Shown here piece after piece: positions 30,938 to 45,715 of a stretch of DNA of 64,000 nt; position 1 is the stretch's first letter; each line of letters starts with the position of its first letter. The notes beneath the pieces were generated by a model. That model saw only the letters and a list, made by a program, of their open reading frames with translations, made no database searches and was not told the origin of the DNA. The stretch is from Liopterus haemorrhoidalis (lineage: Eukaryota > Arthropoda > Insecta > Coleoptera > Dytiscidae). A program made the translations under genes and the position numbers. The stretch spans positions 2,294,001-2,358,000 of the forward strand of contig OZ020611.1 in NCBI GenBank assembly GCA_963971575.1. The letters run 5' to 3'.

Positions 30938-31014
30938 TTACTTAACGAAATATTTTAGGAAAATATTTCCCACTTCTGTAAAACCTTTAATTACTTTGGA
31001 GTATATAATAGACT

Positions 31015-31800
31015 ACTTCTCTTGAAAACTGATGAAACTTGAAATATGACAAGTATAGTCAGCATTATACATTTCTCGTGAAAACTGATATAAGTTGAAA
31101 TATGACATGTTTGGTTAGCATTATAAATTTCTCGTGAAAACTGATGAAAGTTGAGATGACATGTTTAGTCAGCATTATAATTTTCTCGTGAAAACTGATG
31201 CAAGTTGAAATGACATGTTTGGAAAGCATTATACATTTCTCGTGAATACTGATGAAAGTTGAAATATGACATGTTTGATCGGTATTATAAATTTCTCGTA
31301 AAAACTGATGATAGTTAATAATAATAATAATAATAAAACACTTTATTAGTTATTTATAAGAAAATACAAACAAATATTTTTTTTTTTTTACAAATTGAAA
31401 TATGAAATGTTTAGACAACATACATTTCTCGTGAAAACTGATGAAAGTTGAAATATGACATGTTCGGTCGGCATCAGGGGCGCACACAAGGGGGGTCCAA
31501 GGGGTTCGGACCCCCCCTCGTACCCTGAGAAAGGAGAACTTTTTTATTGCTCTTTATTTAAAATTTAAAAGAGAGGACCTTTTTTTTGCTCTTCACTTAC
31601 AATTTAGAAGGGAGAATCTTTTTTTTGCTCTTCACTTGAAATTGAAATTTTGTCCTGTGTTTATAAAAATTATGTGTTATTGGACCCCCCCCCAAGCAAA
31701 ATACTGTGTGCGCCCCTGGTCGGCATTATAAATTTCTCGTGAAAACTGATTTAACTTGAAATATGCCATGTTTGCTCAGCATTTTAAATTTTTCTTAAAG
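31015..31800. repeat. minisatellite, about 57-bp units
   Basis: About ten units with TTTCTCGTGAAAACTGATG, AAGTTGAAATATGACATG and AGCATTATA. The array is broken by an (ATA)n LINE-tail-like piece with TTATTTATAAGAAAATACAA at 31317-31395 and by a hAT MITE at 31475-31718. Confidence 0.85.
31475..31718. mobile_element. hAT-type MITE inside the minisatellite
   Basis: Ends CAGGGGCGCACACA and TGTGTGCGCCCCTG, flanked by GTCGGCAT on both sides (31467-31474, 31719-31726). 244 bp. The inside holds repeats of a GAGAAC/CTTTTTTTGCTCTTCAC block. Confidence 0.92.
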
Positions 31801-32424: not shown

Positions 32425-33215
32425 TGTGTAATACTTAGCTTCAATAATATAAAATCTGATCCTCTTCCAGTAAATATCGGTGTTCCTCAAGATTCCGTTC
32501 TAGGCCCGTTATTATTTCTAATTTTTAATAATGATTTTCCCTTATCAATAAAGATCGAAAGATCGAAAGCTGATGATACTACATTAATTGTTAGATCTAA
32601 TGACCTAGAGTAAGCACTGTCTAGTAGTAACGAATTTATAAGTCAAGCTAAAATGTGGTTCAATGCCAATGGACTATTACTAAATGAAAATAAAACTCAG
32701 CAGCTAGTAACAAATTTTAAACATCATATATTCAATAACTCACTTTCCTTTAAATTCTTAGGTATCCATGTTGATCCGACTCTCTAATGGGATCAGCATG
32801 ATACCCATCTCTAAAATAAATTATGCAGTATCATATATTTATTTCGAAATTTAGCGAATTCGGTATCGGAGCATGTTATGCGAGTAGCTTATTTCTCACT
32901 TTTCTAGTCTCAGATCGCTTATGCACTATTAGCATGGAGACATTCGCCCGCTGCAGAAAGAGTTTTCTCCTTGCTACGCAGAGCGCTCAGAATCATTGCT
33001 GGTTTATCCTATAGAGCCTTTACTAAATACTTTACTAAATTAAAAATCATGACTTTACCCTCACTTTATATATATTATTGCTTCTTGTTAGCTTATAAAA
33101 ACTTATGCGATACTTTTGAACAAATTCATAATTTTAATACAAGGAATAAAAATAAGATTCATCCACCATTTTTAAGATTAACTAAATATAAAAATAGCAC
33201 CAACTATTATTCTTA
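32425..33215 (+). pseudogene. LINE reverse transcriptase, left part (split by the LTR element)
   Basis: Plus-strand frames keep GVPQDSVLGPLLFLIFNND, KADDTTLIVRS (first residue of the usual YADD changed), FLGIHVDPTL and the C-terminal LRRALRIIAGLSYR region. Several frameshifts. The piece continues after the LTR element at 39073. Endonuclease and 5' RT are missing. Confidence 0.85.
33212..33215. repeat. target site duplication CTTA, left
   Basis: CTTA here and at 39069-39072 exactly flank the LTR element; 4-bp duplications are usual for Ty3/gypsy integrases. Confidence 0.88.
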
Positions 33216-33451
33216 TGTAGCGAACGGACTTTTTGTAGAGACTGTACGTCTATGTGTCTGTGGTAAGGGAGACGGACATACGGGCGTGGGGGAAGTATAC
33301 GTGTGTGTACTGCGAACATTAGTTAGTTGTTCGTCGGCAGCGGTTATGGACTGTGTTATTGTGACTATAGACTGTTAACGTGACTCTGTTATGTAATGAT
33401 AAATTGTTATATACCTGTAATTACTTAAATTGAATAATAAAATACGCTACA
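33216..33451 (+). repeat. 5' LTR (236 bp)
   Basis: TGTAGCG...CGCTACA, so it has 5-7 base inverted ends. TTATATA lies at about 33398 and AATAAA at 33436-33441. Reads as identical to 38833-39068. Confidence 0.95.
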
Positions 33452-33452
33452 T

Positions 33453-33470
33453 TGGTGGCGGCGGTGAGAT
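33453..33470 (+). promoter_or_regulatory. putative primer binding site
   Basis: TGGTGGCGGCGGTGAGAT begins one base after the LTR. TGG pairs with the CCA end of a tRNA. I cannot match the rest to a known tRNA 3' end from memory. Confidence 0.5.
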
Positions 33471-33538
33471 AACTGCCGTAAGTTCAGTGTGTTTTTGTAA
33501 CTGAAGTTTGTTTCGTAAGTGAAGTTTGTACCGGAAAG

Positions 33539-34330
33539 ATGGCGGATGTCATAACATGTGCGAAGTTTTCAACTGGTAACTGGGACGAATGGGCACAAAG
33601 TTTTGAGGCATTCGCCTTGTTAAAAGACTGGGATGATGTTAAAAAGGTAATAGCATTACCACTATTCGTAGATGGCCCAGCTAAACAGGCATTTCAAGGT
33701 CTGAGTCAAGAACAAAAAGCTACATGGGCCACGTTACGCGACTCATTGTCCTGTGTATTCCGTCGCGAGGAGGGGGACTTTGAGAAAGAGTTCCTGGCGC
33801 GCCGTCAGATTGCAGGAGAAACTATCGCTACGTTTGCCGCGGCTTTAAAATATTTAGGCGAACTAGCCTTTCCCGAGCACAGTACAGCTACTAGGGAAAA
33901 ATTGCTACTAAAGCAATTTCTGTCGGGCATTGATGTGCAAGTAGCGGAGGAAGCGGCGCGACACAATCCTATCTCCCTTAGTGTCGCCGTTGAAAAGGCT
34001 CAAGCAGCGATAAAAGTACAGCGAACTATAGCGGAGATCCGCAAGTCTCAACAGGGGAACGTCGTCCAAACAGTAGCCCTGGCCGCAGTGACTGAAGATT
34101 CGCAACGGATGGATCGACTGGAGAAATCTGTCGGTGATCTGGCAGCGTCTATAGAGAAACTTAGAGTAGCTGGACAAGACCAGACTGCCGACAATAGTCG
34201 AGATAACAATCGCGTCCGGTGGCGCTCTCCTTCCCCACGACGGGAAGAAGCACGGTGTTACTTGTGTAAGAGGCGCGGACATTTTAAGAATAACTGTCCA
34301 GATGCTCGGGCTAAGAGGTCGGGAAACTAA
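33539..34330 (+). CDS. gag: gag polyprotein of the Ty3/gypsy element
   Basis: 263 residues. The first about 160 residues form a helical capsid-like part (begins FSTGNWDEWAQSFEAFAL; SFEAF/W-rich retrotransposon Gag type). An alanine-rich possible coiled coil follows (145-205), then a basic RVRWRSPSPRR stretch and one CCHC zinc knuckle, C240-x2-C243-x4-H248-x4-C253, for binding genomic RNA. The ATG lies 87 bases after the LTR. The stop TAA overlaps the pol ATG by one base (TAATG). Gag would assemble the particle and package RNA and the Pol products. Confidence 0.93.
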   Translation: MADVITCAKFSTGNWDEWAQSFEAFALLKDWDDVKKVIALPLFVDGPAKQAFQGLSQEQKATWATLRDSLSCVFRREEGDFEKEFLARRQIAGETIATFAAALKYLGELAFPEHSTATREKLLLKQFLSGIDVQVAEEAARHNPISLSVAVEKAQAAIKVQRTIAEIRKSQQGNVVQTVALAAVTEDSQRMDRLEKSVGDLAASIEKLRVAGQDQTADNSRDNNRVRWRSPSPRREEARCYLCKRRGHFKNNCPDARAKRSGN

Positions 34331-37300
34331 TGAAGGCATCGACCTGTCCTGCATCGATGTCGGATAATAAGTCGGGGCGAAAGCAAGACGCTGCGTTAGT
34401 GCGTGTTCGTTGTCATGTCAATAACTTTCCGACAGTGTGTCTCATAGATACAGGTGCGTCGCGATGTTTTGTGAGTCGAGGATTCTGGGAGCGTGTGGGG
34501 AACACACTATTGCGAAAAAGCGACGTGCGGGTGTCGCAAGCTGATAAAAAGCCTCTATGCACACGGGGTATAGGAACTGTGACTGTAAAACTGGCTAATG
34601 TGTCGACTAAAGTAGAAGTGACGGTGTGTGAGGACTTGATTGATGACTGTGTGCTCGGTTGTAACTTTATCCGCGATCAAAAGTGCATAGTAAATCCCGC
34701 AGAGAACTGTGTAATGATAAAAGGACAACGAGTCGACGAGTATCCAATTATGCCGGCCGCTGTAGTGTTGTGTGAATCGATGGTGATACCTCCGCGAACT
34801 GAGGTAATCGGTCGCGTTAAAGTGACGGGTGAAGAGGTTCGTGTTGCGCGCTTGCTGGAACCCTCCACGCGTTGTTGGGAAAGATACGGTTGTATGGTAA
34901 GCCGTAGTTTAATCACGGATACGGAGGGATCGGTGCTGTTGCGTAACCCGACCCAGGAATGTATAACAGTGCGGAAAAATGTATGTCTTGGCTCAGCGGT
35001 GGCGTGTACTTTAGTGGAGGAACATGAACGGGTGGAAACTAACCCGCCTCATTTGGAATTTGACTGGCAGGAGGCAGAACGTCATTTAACACCGAATCAG
35101 TTAAAACGCGCCAAGGAGTGTATAGATACGCATGGTCAAGTAGTGTCGCGTAACAAGAACGACACCGGGCGTACGAGCGTTTTAAAGCATAAGATAGACA
35201 CTGGTACTTCGCAACCCATACGTCTCGCCCCTAGAAGATTACCGCTGGCACGTCGATCTGAAGCTCAGCAAGAGGTACAGCGCATGTTGAAGGCCGGTGT
35301 TATTCGCCCTTCTTCGTCACCATGGTGTTTTCCAGCAGTCCTGATACGCAAAAAGGATGGCACTATGAGGTTTTGCGTAGACTTCCGCAAGTTGAATGAA
35401 GTAACAGTGAAGGATAGCTACCCCTTGCCACGGATAGATGACGTGTTAGACTCGTTGTCTGGCGCTACTTTGTTCTCAGCGTTAGATCTACAATCAGGCT
35501 ACTGGCAATGCGAGGTGGATAAGGAAGATCGTCCGAAAACGGCCTTTTCTATCGGTTCTGGTTTGTACGAGTTCAACGTCCTACCATTTGGTGTCTGCAA
35601 TGGACCAGCCACGTTCCAACGGCTTATGGACCTCATCTTGGAAGGTTTAAACTGGGAGGCGGCGTTGGTATATCTCGATGATGTGATTGTATTCGGTAAA
35701 ACGTTTGAGGAACACCTGGAACGACTAATAATGGTTCTGGATCGATTACAGTCTGCCGGGTTAAAGGTGAACCCTAGAAAATGTCGGCTTTTTCATCGAG
35801 AAGTCGAGTTTTTAGGACACATCGTGAGTCATGATGGTATTGCTACAGATCCCGAGAAGTTGCGAGCCGTAGATCACTGGCCGGTGCCTAGAAATTTGAC
35901 AGAGTTAAGGTCATTTCTTGGTCTGGCATCGTATTACCGCCGGTTCGTGTTGGGTTTTGCATCGATTGCCGAACCACTTCATCGATTACTGAATAAAGGC
36001 GAAAGATTCGTCTGGAGCGAGGATTGCGATTGCGCTTTTAAAAAACTAAAGCGTTGTCTAATGACATCCCCTATTTTAGCATACCCGAATCCTCAGATGC
36101 CGTTCCTTATCGATGTGGACGCTAGTGGCACAGGCATAGGAGGAGTATTAAGCCAGGTTCAGGACGGCGAAGAACGCGTGGTCGCGTATTACAGCCGATC
36201 ATTAACCAAAGTAGAGAGAAGATACTGCGTTACACGCAGGGAAATGTTAGCCCTCGTAGCAGTGTGTCGACAGTTTAAAGGCTATTTATTGGGTGCTCGT
36301 TTCACAGCTAGAACAGACCACAACTGTCTGCGCTGGCTGCGAGGATTTCGTGAACCAGAAGGGCAGGTTGCAAGATGGCTGGAGATTCTATCCGAATACC
36401 ACATTGAGGTAGAGCACCGACCGGGGAAGAAACACGGCAACGCTGATGGATTGTCACGACGGCCATGTTCGCAGTGCGGCATGAACGAAGGAGAGGAGCA
36501 AATGGCTAGTATATGCGCCCTGGATGATCCTGTTGTAGATACCCCTGTGTTAGTGATGGAACAACGAAAAGACGAGTGTTGTGGCCCCGTGGTGCGAGTG
36601 ATAAACGGGGAAATAACCGAATCTGTTTTGGACAAATCGGCTCACAAACTTTATATGTTGAAGCCTGAACTGAAAGATCAAGTGCTGTGTATCGTGGACA
36701 GAACGGGTCGGTTACCTGAATACCGGGCGGTGGTACCTGCGTCAATGGTATCGGAGATCATGCGAGTGTACCACGGAAACGCTTCGGCAGGAGCGCATAT
36801 GGGTGTGACCAGAACTCTATCGCGGTTGCGTGAGCGGTTCTTTTGGTTTAATATGCAGCGCGATGTTGCGGATTGGTGTCGTAAGTGTGAAGACTGTAGC
36901 CGTCGTAAAACACCCATACCTTCAGCCAAGTCGCCGTTACTCACACATTTAGTAGAGCGTCCTCTTCAGCGCGTTGCATTAGACATTTTAGGACCACTGC
37001 CTACGACCGAACGCGGTTGCAAGTATATTATGGTTGTGAGTGATTATTTCACGAAATGGACGGAAGCATACGCGTTACCTAATCAAACAGCTGAATCGTG
37101 CGCGCGCGTTTTCGTCGACGAATTCGTTTGCCGCTATGGCGCCCCTGAGATTCTGCATTCTGATCAAGGCCGACAATTTGAGTCTCAATTATTTCAAGAG
37201 ATGTGCCGCCTGTTAGACATCGAGAAAACGCGCACCACACCATTTCGGCCTCAGTCTGACGGCATGGTGGAGCGATTTAACAGGACGCTCCTGAATATGC

Positions 37301-38817
37301 TGAGCCACTGGGCAGGCGAACATCAACGGACCTGGGACACTAAGTTGCCTCAAGTGATGCTGGCTTATCGTGCTAGTCGGCATGATAGTACCCGATACAC
37401 ACCCTTTACCATGATGTTTGGTAGAGAGATACGGTTACCGGCCGATGCACAGTACGGACTACCCCCAGATACATCGTGCCGATCGGATCAAGAGTTTGTT
37501 CGTAATTTGAGAGCATCCTTAGACCAAGCACACGAGGCTGCCCGTGAGCATTTAGGGGTGGCTCATCGCCGACAGAAAGAATATTATGACCGTAATGCGA
37601 AACCTCGATCATATCAAGTTGGCGATGTTGTGTGGGTCCATCAACCTACCCCACGTATTGGGGAGACTAGTAAACTACATCGTCCCTGGACGGGTCCGTA
37701 TCGGGTAATCAAGGATATCGGAATGCATACTTTCCGTGTGCAGCATTGCGCTTTAAAACACAAGCGCTTGGTAATACATCAAGATCGTCTGAAACCGTGT
37801 GCTGAGGTGCCAGCACCCGACACCGCGATGCGAGAAGAACGAGCGAGGAGACGCCCTGGACGACCCCGACGCAGCGCAGTGGGTGGCCATCAATCAGATG
37901 CCGACACCCATTGTTGGGAAGAGGTAGCCGGTGATGTGTTTGATTCCCCTGCAGAATATGGTTTAGCTCATTGTGTAGCTGAGGACCTGAAAATGGGCGC
38001 TGGAATAGCTGTGGAATTCAAAAAGAGATTCCAGGGTATAGATCAGTTAAGGGATCAGAATCTTCGAACAGGGGACGTGGGGATGTTGCGATCCCCCGGA
38101 CGGTACGTCTTTTATTTAGTGACTAAGAAATGTAGTCACCAACGGCCAACCTATGATTCTCTGCATCAAGCTCTATGTTGTTTGAGAGATCGCGCCGTGA
38201 CTCATGGAGTTGATAAGATAGCCATGCCTATGATAGGATGTGGACTGGATGGATTAAATGAACACCGAGTAAAACAACTGATCAATCAGGTGTTCCAAGG
38301 ACAGGGCATCCAGATTCGTATTTATAAAGACCAGAAGGCTCGGAGAGTCACTCGTCCAACAACCGTACAAACTCCTGGGGGCGCGATTAGTGATTCTAGT
38401 CGTTGTTCAACACCATTGTCATGGCCTAGCCCCGGGCGTGAATCACTTGCCCCCGATATCTGCCCAGAAACGGTTTCTGATGTTGGCGACTCTTCGATAC
38501 AGAATCGGAGCATCGAAACACCAGATGAGCTCTCCGAAACAGAGGAGGAGACTGACTACGTCATGGCTGAGGGCGATAATATCCCGAATATTGGAACCGG
38601 AGAGACTGCCGGTAAAGAGGAGCGACCCCCGGAGGACCCATCAGAGCCTGTTGTGGAGGACGGTGTGCTTGTTGAGGACGTTAGTGCTGACCCAGTGGCC
38701 CCGAATGAGGGCGGCGAAGTATCCGAAAACCAGGAACCCAGACGCGTATTGCCGCCTCGAGTTTCGCGTGATGTTGCCAGAAGTCGTATTCTGGACACTT
38801 TCGGGAGAAAGTGCTGA
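34330..38817 (+). CDS. pol: pol polyprotein: protease, RT, RNase H, integrase, GPY/F, TARG1-type macrodomain
   Basis: 1495 residues in one open frame. Protease: LIDTGAS with D40. Reverse transcriptase: about 280-480, with D386 in SALDLQSGYW and YLDD at 448-451. RNase H: about 590-705, D597, E638, D663. Integrase: zinc ligands H815, H823, C853, C856; catalytic D885, D945, E981 (D-x59-D-x35-E). GPY/F module: WTGPYRV at 1120-1126. Then an AT-hook-like RPGRPRR (1175-1181). The macrodomain spans about 1196-1333 with KMGAGIAVEFKKRF, FYLVTKK (K1266) and MIGCGLDGL (D1307). An acidic tail follows to 1495. The macrodomain is closest, from memory, to TARG1/OARD1, which removes ADP-ribose from acidic residues; its catalytic K84 and D125 have the same 41-residue spacing. 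No chromodomain and no env. Pol is in the -1 frame to gag; the TAATG overlap suggests termination-reinitiation. Confidence 0.95.
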   Translation: MKASTCPASMSDNKSGRKQDAALVRVRCHVNNFPTVCLIDTGASRCFVSRGFWERVGNTLLRKSDVRVSQADKKPLCTRGIGTVTVKLANVSTKVEVTVCEDLIDDCVLGCNFIRDQKCIVNPAENCVMIKGQRVDEYPIMPAAVVLCESMVIPPRTEVIGRVKVTGEEVRVARLLEPSTRCWERYGCMVSRSLITDTEGSVLLRNPTQECITVRKNVCLGSAVACTLVEEHERVETNPPHLEFDWQEAERHLTPNQLKRAKECIDTHGQVVSRNKNDTGRTSVLKHKIDTGTSQPIRLAPRRLPLARRSEAQQEVQRMLKAGVIRPSSSPWCFPAVLIRKKDGTMRFCVDFRKLNEVTVKDSYPLPRIDDVLDSLSGATLFSALDLQSGYWQCEVDKEDRPKTAFSIGSGLYEFNVLPFGVCNGPATFQRLMDLILEGLNWEAALVYLDDVIVFGKTFEEHLERLIMVLDRLQSAGLKVNPRKCRLFHREVEFLGHIVSHDGIATDPEKLRAVDHWPVPRNLTELRSFLGLASYYRRFVLGFASIAEPLHRLLNKGERFVWSEDCDCAFKKLKRCLMTSPILAYPNPQMPFLIDVDASGTGIGGVLSQVQDGEERVVAYYSRSLTKVERRYCVTRREMLALVAVCRQFKGYLLGARFTARTDHNCLRWLRGFREPEGQVARWLEILSEYHIEVEHRPGKKHGNADGLSRRPCSQCGMNEGEEQMASICALDDPVVDTPVLVMEQRKDECCGPVVRVINGEITESVLDKSAHKLYMLKPELKDQVLCIVDRTGRLPEYRAVVPASMVSEIMRVYHGNASAGAHMGVTRTLSRLRERFFWFNMQRDVADWCRKCEDCSRRKTPIPSAKSPLLTHLVERPLQRVALDILGPLPTTERGCKYIMVVSDYFTKWTEAYALPNQTAESCARVFVDEFVCRYGAPEILHSDQGRQFESQLFQEMCRLLDIEKTRTTPFRPQSDGMVERFNRTLLNMLSHWAGEHQRTWDTKLPQVMLAYRASRHDSTRYTPFTMMFGREIRLPADAQYGLPPDTSCRSDQEFVRNLRASLDQAHEAAREHLGVAHRRQKEYYDRNAKPRSYQVGDVVWVHQPTPRIGETSKLHRPWTGPYRVIKDIGMHTFRVQHCALKHKRLVIHQDRLKPCAEVPAPDTAMREERARRRPGRPRRSAVGGHQSDADTHCWEEVAGDVFDSPAEYGLAHCVAEDLKMGAGIAVEFKKRFQGIDQLRDQNLRTGDVGMLRSPGRYVFYLVTKKCSHQRPTYDSLHQALCCLRDRAVTHGVDKIAMPMIGCGLDGLNEHRVKQLINQVFQGQGIQIRIYKDQKARRVTRPTTVQTPGGAISDSSRCSTPLSWPSPGRESLAPDICPETVSDVGDSSIQNRSIETPDELSETEEETDYVMAEGDNIPNIGTGETAGKEERPPEDPSEPVVEDGVLVEDVSADPVAPNEGGEVSENQEPRRVLPPRVSRDVARSRILDTFGRKC
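37915..38328 (+). other. macrodomain-coding segment within pol (TARG1/OARD1 type)
   Basis: Codes residues 1196-1333 of Pol. It contains the ligand-binding loop KMGAGIA (1221-1227), the GD pair (1201-1202) before the first strand, the K1266 lysine and the GCGLD loop with D1307. The order and spacing agree with TARG1, which is about the same size (roughly 150 residues). No stop or frameshift, so the enzyme is predicted intact. Expected activity: hydrolysis of ADP-ribose esters and O-acetyl-ADP-ribose. Confidence 0.9.
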
Positions 38818-38823
38818 CTTAGT

Positions 38824-38832
38824 AGGGAAGAG
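38824..38832 (+). promoter_or_regulatory. polypurine tract
   Basis: AGGGAAGAG directly before the 3' LTR; expected plus-strand primer for reverse transcription. Confidence 0.75.
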
Positions 38833-39068
38833 TGTAGCGAACGGACTTTTTGTAGAGACTGTACGTCTATGTGTCTGTGGTAAGGGAGACGGACATACGG
38901 GCGTGGGGGAAGTATACGTGTGTGTACTGCGAACATTAGTTAGTTGTTCGTCGGCAGCGGTTATGGACTGTGTTATTGTGACTATAGACTGTTAACGTGA
39001 CTCTGTTATGTAATGATAAATTGTTATATACCTGTAATTACTTAAATTGAATAATAAAATACGCTACA
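38833..39068 (+). repeat. 3' LTR (236 bp)
   Basis: Same sequence as the 5' LTR on reading. It is followed by the CTTA duplication. Confidence 0.95.
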
Positions 39069-39072
39069 CTTA

Positions 39073-44695: not shown

Positions 44696-45715
44696 GTCGT
44701 TTATTTTGATTTCGCCAAGGCTTTTGATAGAGTAGCGTTTCAAAGGTTATTCGCTAAACTGGAACACAATGGCATCCGCGGACAAATTCTGCAGTGGATC
44801 TCCGCATATCTCTCCAATAGAACCTTCAACGTGCGTATAAGGAAGGCTTGTTCAAGACACTACCCGATTACGAGCGGCGTACCTCAAGGCAGCGTAATAG
44901 GCCCTATCCTGTTTCTACTATTCGTCTCTGACTTGGTAGTCCATCTAATATCCCAGCACCAGATGTTTGCAGACGACTTAAAAATTTACAATAAGTCAGA
45001 AAACCAAGTCGATATACAAGCCGATATCAACAGGATTCAAGAATGGTGTAGCAGGTGGCTTCTACCATTAAACACGTCCAAATGCAATATTTTGCACCTG
45101 GGGTCTACCAACCCAAGGCACACATACTGCATCGCGGGACACGCAATCCAACATGTCGATCGTGTAGTAGATCTTGGACTTACTGTGACAACTACACTAG
45201 ACTGGTCACCGCACGTAGTCACGGTAGCAAGAAAAGCAAACAAAATCCTCTATCTGATTTTTAAATCCTTTCCTCACTTAACTTCTACCTTATTCCGCAC
45301 AATCTACCTATCGTATATCCGTCCCCTTCTTGAATTTGCATTTGTAGTTTGGTCGCCTTACTTACAAAAGGACATTCAACTTCTGGAGGGGGTTCAGAGA
45401 CGCGCCACCAGATTGCCAAGAGGTCTCCGCCGTATGCCGTATGAAGAGCGCTTAAGAATTCTCGACATTCAACCTCTGTCAGAGCTCCGAAAACGTAGAG
45501 ACTTAATCCAAATATATAGGATTGTAACGGGCAAGTTCTTTACCGATATGTCGTCACTTTTCCACCTTAATTCCGACCAGAGGCTACGTGGCCACCACCT
45601 GAAGTTGAAGCACGAAAAGTTTAAACGACAGCCAAGGCAGTTTTTCGTCACCAACCGTGTCTTCAACCTGTGGAATTCTCTCTCCCGGAAGAAGCTGTGT
45701 CTGCCCCTAGCATAA
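44696..45715 (+). CDS. CR1-like LINE reverse transcriptase, 5' truncated but open
   Basis: Continuous open frame to a TAA at 45713-45715 (about 339 codons), without an obvious native start. RT blocks: FDFAKAFDRV, TSGVPQGSVIGPILFLLF, QMFADDLKIY (FADD for YADD), WLLPLNTSKC, and the C-terminal thumb/knuckle part WSPYLQKDIQLLEGVQRRAT. The style is CR1/L2-like. The endonuclease and first RT blocks are missing, so this is a 5'-truncated insertion. Followed by about 200 bp of 3' UTR and a (TAA)n tail ending near 45950. Confidence 0.88.
   Translation, partial: VVYFDFAKAFDRVAFQRLFAKLEHNGIRGQILQWISAYLSNRTFNVRIRKACSRHYPITSGVPQGSVIGPILFLLFVSDLVVHLISQHQMFADDLKIYNKSENQVDIQADINRIQEWCSRWLLPLNTSKCNILHLGSTNPRHTYCIAGHAIQHVDRVVDLGLTVTTTLDWSPHVVTVARKANKILYLIFKSFPHLTSTLFRTIYLSYIRPLLEFAFVVWSPYLQKDIQLLEGVQRRATRLPRGLRRMPYEERLRILDIQPLSELRKRRDLIQIYRIVTGKFFTDMSSLFHLNSDQRLRGHHLKLKHEKFKRQPRQFFVTNRVFNLWNSLSRKKLCLPLA

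Follow-up and report, generated by a model that had tools for sequence, protein, structure and literature searches.

Human TARG1, also called OARD1 or C6orf130, is a free cellular enzyme with a macrodomain of the ALC1-like class. In the sections of a review that deal with it (PMC7050489), the catalytic dyad is given as Lys84 together with an acidic residue at position 125, printed there as Glu125, and the substrates as Asp/Glu esters, O-acetyl-ADP-ribose and nucleic-acid ends; reversal of RNA-end ADP-ribosylation by TARG1 is described in an excerpt of PMC6582358. Retroelements with a cellular macro-domain gene have a precedent in ray-finned fish, where endogenous retroviruses with Epsilon-like sequences carry additional open reading frames (ORFs) for macro-domain or CNPase proteins (as described in part of PMC4977317, after Basta et al. 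2009). Orchid Ty3/gypsy elements acquired a host eraser of another kind, an AlkB-type N6-methyladenosine (m6A) demethylase of demonstrated activity that keeps its cofactor residues (excerpt of PMC9289625). Here we describe a Ty3/gypsy long terminal repeat (LTR) retrotransposon at positions 33216-39068 of a 64,000-nucleotide stretch of the genome of the dytiscid beetle Liopterus haemorrhoidalis (contig OZ020611.1, 2,294,001 to 2,358,000; the whole stretch is called the window), in which Pol ends in a TARG1-type macrodomain. It appears fairly probable that this domain is a hydrolase, likely carried in the element's particle, that would strip ADP-ribose added by the host.

Because of the fish precedent, as it stands in that description, retroelements with a macro domain are not new as such, and the claim of an earlier note on this DNA that no well-described retrotransposon has such an architecture needs narrowing accordingly: what was not found among the matches listed in open-licence PubMed Central, which is weak evidence of absence, is a fusion of the domain to Ty3/gypsy Pol. 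Going by PMC4977317's description alone, the fish elements have their macro domains in additional ORFs, whereas the beetle elements are Ty3/gypsy, carry the domain in frame at three positions, and do so repeatedly. The orchid demethylase, as the excerpt presents it, likewise sits in an added ORF, in a single plant lineage, in contrast to a different eraser placed within Pol in several lineages. Relative to the literature found, the new elements are the TARG1 class of the domain, its in-frame position in Ty3/gypsy Pol, the three positions, its occurrence in more than one lineage within a single genome (several in all), and derivatives that lack reverse transcriptase (RT).

The class of the domain (37924-38325, forward strand) is established by direct comparison, and a chance match is excluded. 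In phmmer searches against solved structures it matched human TARG1 chains across 134 residues with an E value of 2e-37; five human C6orf130/TARG1 sequences headed the ranking (E about 2e-37), and the next entry was a bacterial Appr-1-p protein at 2.4e-6. The general Pfam Macro profile (PF01661) scored the domain at 21.5 bits (E 2.3e-4), just under the curated cut-off of 22.0, so that the profile comparison suggested in the earlier note falls narrowly short while the TARG1 match itself is strong; the same cut-off is exceeded by the domain of locus L031 in family F2 (33.4) and by that of the public protein P0013 (23.9). An AlphaFold model of the window domain, from 24 sequences (predicted local distance difference test 86.6, predicted template modelling score 0.83), has as its best structural match TARG1 chain 4j5s_C, with a template modelling score of 0.98 by target length and a root-mean-square deviation of 0.7 Å, followed by DarG, and the fold of the F8 macrodomain is likewise closest to TARG1. 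A MacroD or viral-type macrodomain was considered and is ruled out, since TARG1 is the best match by both sequence and fold.

Identity to human TARG1 is about 44%, and the residues on which catalysis depends are in place. The motifs KMGAGIAVEFKKRF, FYLVTKK and MIGCGLDGL, which the earlier note had recognized in a TARG1-type domain, begin at Pol residues 1221, 1261 and 1301, and Lys1266 (codon 38125-38127) and Asp1307 (codon 38248-38250) align with K84 and D125 of TARG1. Across the genome the catalytic lysine is present in all 118 fetched loci and the aspartate in 114, with asparagine in the other four, and both fold and catalytic pair are retained between domains that are only 33-47% identical. 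With both residues in place, the window macrodomain is predicted to have ADP-ribose hydrolase activity.

The fusion is a multi-copy arrangement. The genome scan scored 150 of 375 macrodomain candidates and 150 of 3560 RT candidates, and all genome counts given here are lower bounds; in the search table, 48 of the 150 scored rows have open frames of at least 1300 amino acids without a stop. The window's own family, F1, comprises at least 18 loci, of which ten keep a 1500-codon open frame; three other loci (contigs C3, C9 and C14) match the window at all but 0 or 1 of 2448 bases. These 18 loci rule out a chimera or an assembly artefact, including the one-off chimera against which the earlier note had cautioned. 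When domain order is compared across loci, the macrodomain follows the GPY/F position in F1 and F3, stands behind the protease and ahead of RT in F2 and the public protein P0006, and stands behind RNase H and ahead of the zinc domain of integrase in F4, F6, F8 and the Athalia rosae protein P0013. Like errantivirus-like insect Ty3/gypsy elements, F6 and F8 have a Baculo_F envelope gene (Pfam 5.5e-51 and 9.4e-18), unlike the window element, which is envelope-free; no errantivirus macrodomain was found in a search of the open-licence PubMed Central literature. F4 has an ORF equal in length to the envelope gene of F8 (568 codons) with no Pfam match. LTR pairs are identical in F4 and F8 over the compared lengths (230 and 296 bp), and 99.4% identical in F6 along a 159-bp stretch that the locus end interrupts. 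Eight macrodomain-bearing matches of F4 type are clustered at 18.57-19.30 Mb of contig C8 (G000), a possible local duplication, and an F3 locus (L032) encodes a CCCH zinc finger (PF00642, above cut-off) behind its macrodomain, at pol residues 1382-1406.

Two sets of trees bear on how often the domain was gained. One, of RT plus RNase H, has 13 representatives, one locus per family, over 406 columns; the other, of the macrodomain, has 141 columns and 36 rows chosen as representatives (22 of the 118 loci, 13 public proteins and human TARG1), with a second set of 25 rows. On the RT and RNase H tree, F3 pairs with F12 (support 98/97), F2 with F15 (96/94) and P0006 with F13 (100/100), and none of these three partners carries the domain, whereas F4, F6, F8 and P0013 cluster together (100/99). 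No macrodomain was found in F12, F13, F15 or F16, each judged from one representative (best E 0.62 across the ORFs of L119-L123). Constraining the nine carriers to one clade lowers the log-likelihood by 276 units (approximately unbiased (AU) test, p 8e-7), constraining F2 with P0006 lowers it by 83, and a clade of F1, P0002 and F3 that leaves out F12 has p 0.014; the minimum number of changes on this tree is four for presence or absence and five for position. Because the carriers are not one clade and have carrier-free sisters alongside, several separate insertions into Pol are well supported, probably at least three or four, and the single capture event envisaged in the earlier note does not hold, given three Pol positions and carriers that fall apart on the tree.

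The alternative of one ancient gain into Pol, followed by losses and by moves through recombination between elements, draws on the macrodomain itself, for which a single clade of element domains is not rejected (AU p 0.077 with 36 rows, 0.054 with 25). It also fits the near kinship of the P0006 domain, between protease and RT, and the C-terminal F1 domain (support 85/78 to 87/81), as expected of transfer between elements. It must at the same time accommodate three positions, the rejection of a carrier clade by RT and RNase H, the carrier-free sisters beside F3, F2 and P0006, and best macrodomain trees in which element domains are interleaved with host-type proteins. Two narrower groupings give mixed results with the macrodomain: the 36-row set rejects a clade of F2 and P0006 (p 0.014) and the 25-row set does not (p 0.092), and the C-terminal set as a clade has p 0.056 and 0.029 in the 36-row and 25-row sets. 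We regard a single gain as rather doubtful on this balance. Each of the several insertions may have been a fresh capture from a host or a transfer from another element.

Three families have lost RT and RNase H and nevertheless retain the macrodomain. F7 has a 968-codon frame with the order protease, macrodomain, H2C2 and rve, and F9 has the same order; the LTRs of both are 99.6% identical. F5, whose 221-bp LTRs are identical, has gag, envelope-like pieces and a frame of 474 codons that encodes the macrodomain and matches a protease weakly; RT, RNase H and integrase were all undetected in it. On the macrodomain tree F7 joins F4 and F5 joins F9, all inside the group with the domain between RNase H and integrase. 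RT can be provided in trans, and since the macrodomain is kept in the F4/F7 and F5/F9 comparisons under a ratio of nonsynonymous to synonymous substitution rates (dN/dS) of 0.07-0.11, its retention suggests that in the RT-less derivatives it acts in cis or together with Gag and protease.

This ratio, measured between sister families over a long divergence, is a sign of purifying selection. The dN/dS comparison proposed in the earlier note gives a divided answer, with purifying selection between families and weak evidence in F1 alone, where the pooled macrodomain value is 0.455. The moderate value in F1, together with a looser tail behind the domain (0.693), would fit a passenger, a captured host fragment of no use to the element and retained since it does no harm. 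Such a passenger would hardly show a dN/dS of 0.07-0.11 between sister families, keep its fold and catalytic pair at 33-47% identity, recur in several separate lineages and survive the loss of RT and RNase H, and we consider that explanation, already disfavoured by these results, very improbable.

How the domain would serve the element can be proposed from its position and conservation. Host PARP-type enzymes would write ADP-ribose marks that otherwise restrain the element; as the terminal part of Gag-Pol, the macrodomain would travel inside the particle and would there hydrolyse host-added ADP-ribose on element proteins or nucleic acid. The domain could act on Asp/Glu residues, in proteins of the element or of the host, or on RNA or cDNA at their phosphate ends. 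Since the domain is part of Gag-Pol at every position, keeps its catalytic pair and outlives RT, an eraser used by the particle is indicated, and since it was gained repeatedly and retained without RT and RNase H, its role would be one of counter-defence or maintenance, tied to the particle and not to reverse transcription. The role put forward in the earlier note, removal of ADP-ribose from element complexes or nucleic acid, may apply. One review raises, in a passage, the speculation that transposon-derived or viral RNA may be marked by ADP-ribosylation (PMC7050489). Eight PARP-family matches are present in this genome, at about six places.

A number of observations weigh against this proposal. 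The F1 value of 0.455 is not distinct from that of integrase (0.575), F6 against F8 gives 0.37, and a pair within F6 gives 1.27, although from six changes only. The macrodomain also changes faster than RT: between the window locus (L001) and P0002, a relative from a public assembly, RT is 92% identical and the macrodomain 67%, and between L001 and an older copy on contig C16 (L061, to which RT was assigned by position) the figures are 81% and 47%, a difference that could also mean looser constraint. Of the four loci with asparagine in place of the catalytic aspartate, all in F3, one (L053) has it within an open frame of 1455. Outside this genome only 3 of 13 matches are Pol fusions, and protein searches with the F4 domain (0 of 157 candidates) and with P0013 (only itself, of 312) added no other, the spread of the fusion outside this genome being thinly sampled.

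The loss of the aspartate at these four F3 loci speaks for the main rival for the C-terminal families, in which the domain is an ADP-ribose reader that binds PARP-marked chromatin or breaks and steers integration, hydrolysis being incidental. In chromoviruses an extra domain, the chromodomain, for which a role in steering integration is proposed, stands C-terminal to integrase, and the F1 and F3 macrodomains follow GPY/F at the corresponding site; unlike the Pol of chromoviruses, the window Pol has no chromodomain among the Pfam matches of its last 488 residues. A pure reader needs no catalytic pair, yet the lysine is invariant and the aspartate nearly so in the fetched loci; the domain of F2 and P0006 lies far from integrase, and F5 retains it with no integrase detected. 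A targeting role accordingly seems unlikely, and the particle-borne eraser remains the preferred reading.

The window macrodomain is no closer to the genome's own TARG1-like loci (41-45% identity) than to aphid-type proteins (48%), and the host gene that the earlier note took to be captured may have come from a donor other than this beetle. Three of the TARG1-like loci (L019, L041 and L044) group together on the macrodomain tree (98/95), and neither a protease nor an RT match lies within 3.4 kb of L019, which makes it likely that all three are host genes. Named relatives outside the beetle come from Adelges, Acyrthosiphon, Rhopalosiphum, Thrips, Frankliniella and Athalia. Nine public proteins of 737-803 amino acids (P0003-P0005, P0007, P0009-P0012 and P0014), which so far as they are named come from aphids, adelgids and thrips, have a TARG1-like domain outside any retroelement. 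A Glyco_transf_90 protein of 1220 amino acids (P0008) is TARG1-like at residues 1084-1218, where it is 52% identical to the window domain. In IMG/VR there was no close relative; one stretch matched a pattern and none was confirmed.

The remaining anatomy of the window element is that of an intact Ty3/gypsy retrotransposon, as the earlier note had read it. LTRs of 236 bp (TGTAGCG...CGCTACA, 33216-33451 and 38833-39068) are identical at 236 of 236 positions and are flanked by the target-site duplication CTTA (33212-33215 and 39069-39072). The LTRs, the ORFs and the domains of the element are on the forward strand. The sequence TTGGTGGCGG comes after the 5' LTR, where a tRNA primer-binding site would stand. 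A gag ORF of 263 amino acids (33539-34330) has a putative CCHC knuckle, at 18 bits below the Pfam zf-CCHC cut-off of 20.8. The pol ORF (34330-38817) is a single uninterrupted frame of 1495 codons, as previously described, and its start codon shares one base with the gag stop (TAATG), an arrangement that would suit termination-reinitiation. Pfam places in it, in order, the aspartic protease (PF13975, 34405-34674, 7.1e-11), RVT_1 (35344-35826, 2.3e-36), RNase H (PF17919/PF17917, 36013-36399), the H2C2 zinc-binding domain of integrase (36733-36912, 2.9e-19), the integrase core rve (36955-37251, 6.2e-14) and Integrase_p58_C at the GPY/F position (37693-37797, 1.2e-8), and then the macrodomain, behind which a C-terminal tail (38326-38814) has no Pfam match. 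There is no envelope gene, and 15 bases separate the pol stop from the 3' LTR. Elsewhere in the window, an ORF of 294 amino acids with an RVT_1 match (44831-45715) belongs to another retroelement, and a 55-nt repeat family has seven copies, some in tandem, at 31011-31782.

Macro domains whose predicted structures match the window domain, at up to 44% identity, are found in arthropod viruses (Kadipiro virus, thrips flavi-like and virga-like viruses, and an isopod iridescent virus), which, going by their listing entries alone, are RNA or large DNA viruses in which the domain has other protein contexts. A wider proposal, which we put forward tentatively as something short of an even chance, is that ADP-ribosylation is an overlooked line of conflict between insects and their retroelements: Ty3/gypsy elements and envelope-bearing endogenous retroviruses would have captured TARG1-type domains repeatedly, at three Pol sites and with retention after loss of RT, as a particle-borne eraser against a PARP-type host defence, and pressure from that defence would also have led RNA and DNA viruses of arthropods to take up the domain. 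Carriers and carrier-free sisters in the same genome (F3 and F12, F2 and F15) provide a natural comparison for such a role. Captured enzymes are seldom retained by retroelements, and here one class has apparently entered Pol several times with its catalytic pair kept. In mammals, SIRT6 ribosylates KAP1 and so silences L1 (excerpt of PMC4695847); if the macrodomain is active, host ADP-ribosylation would be a pressure on insect retroelements as well, a link otherwise met, in the literature found, only in mammalian work of this kind.
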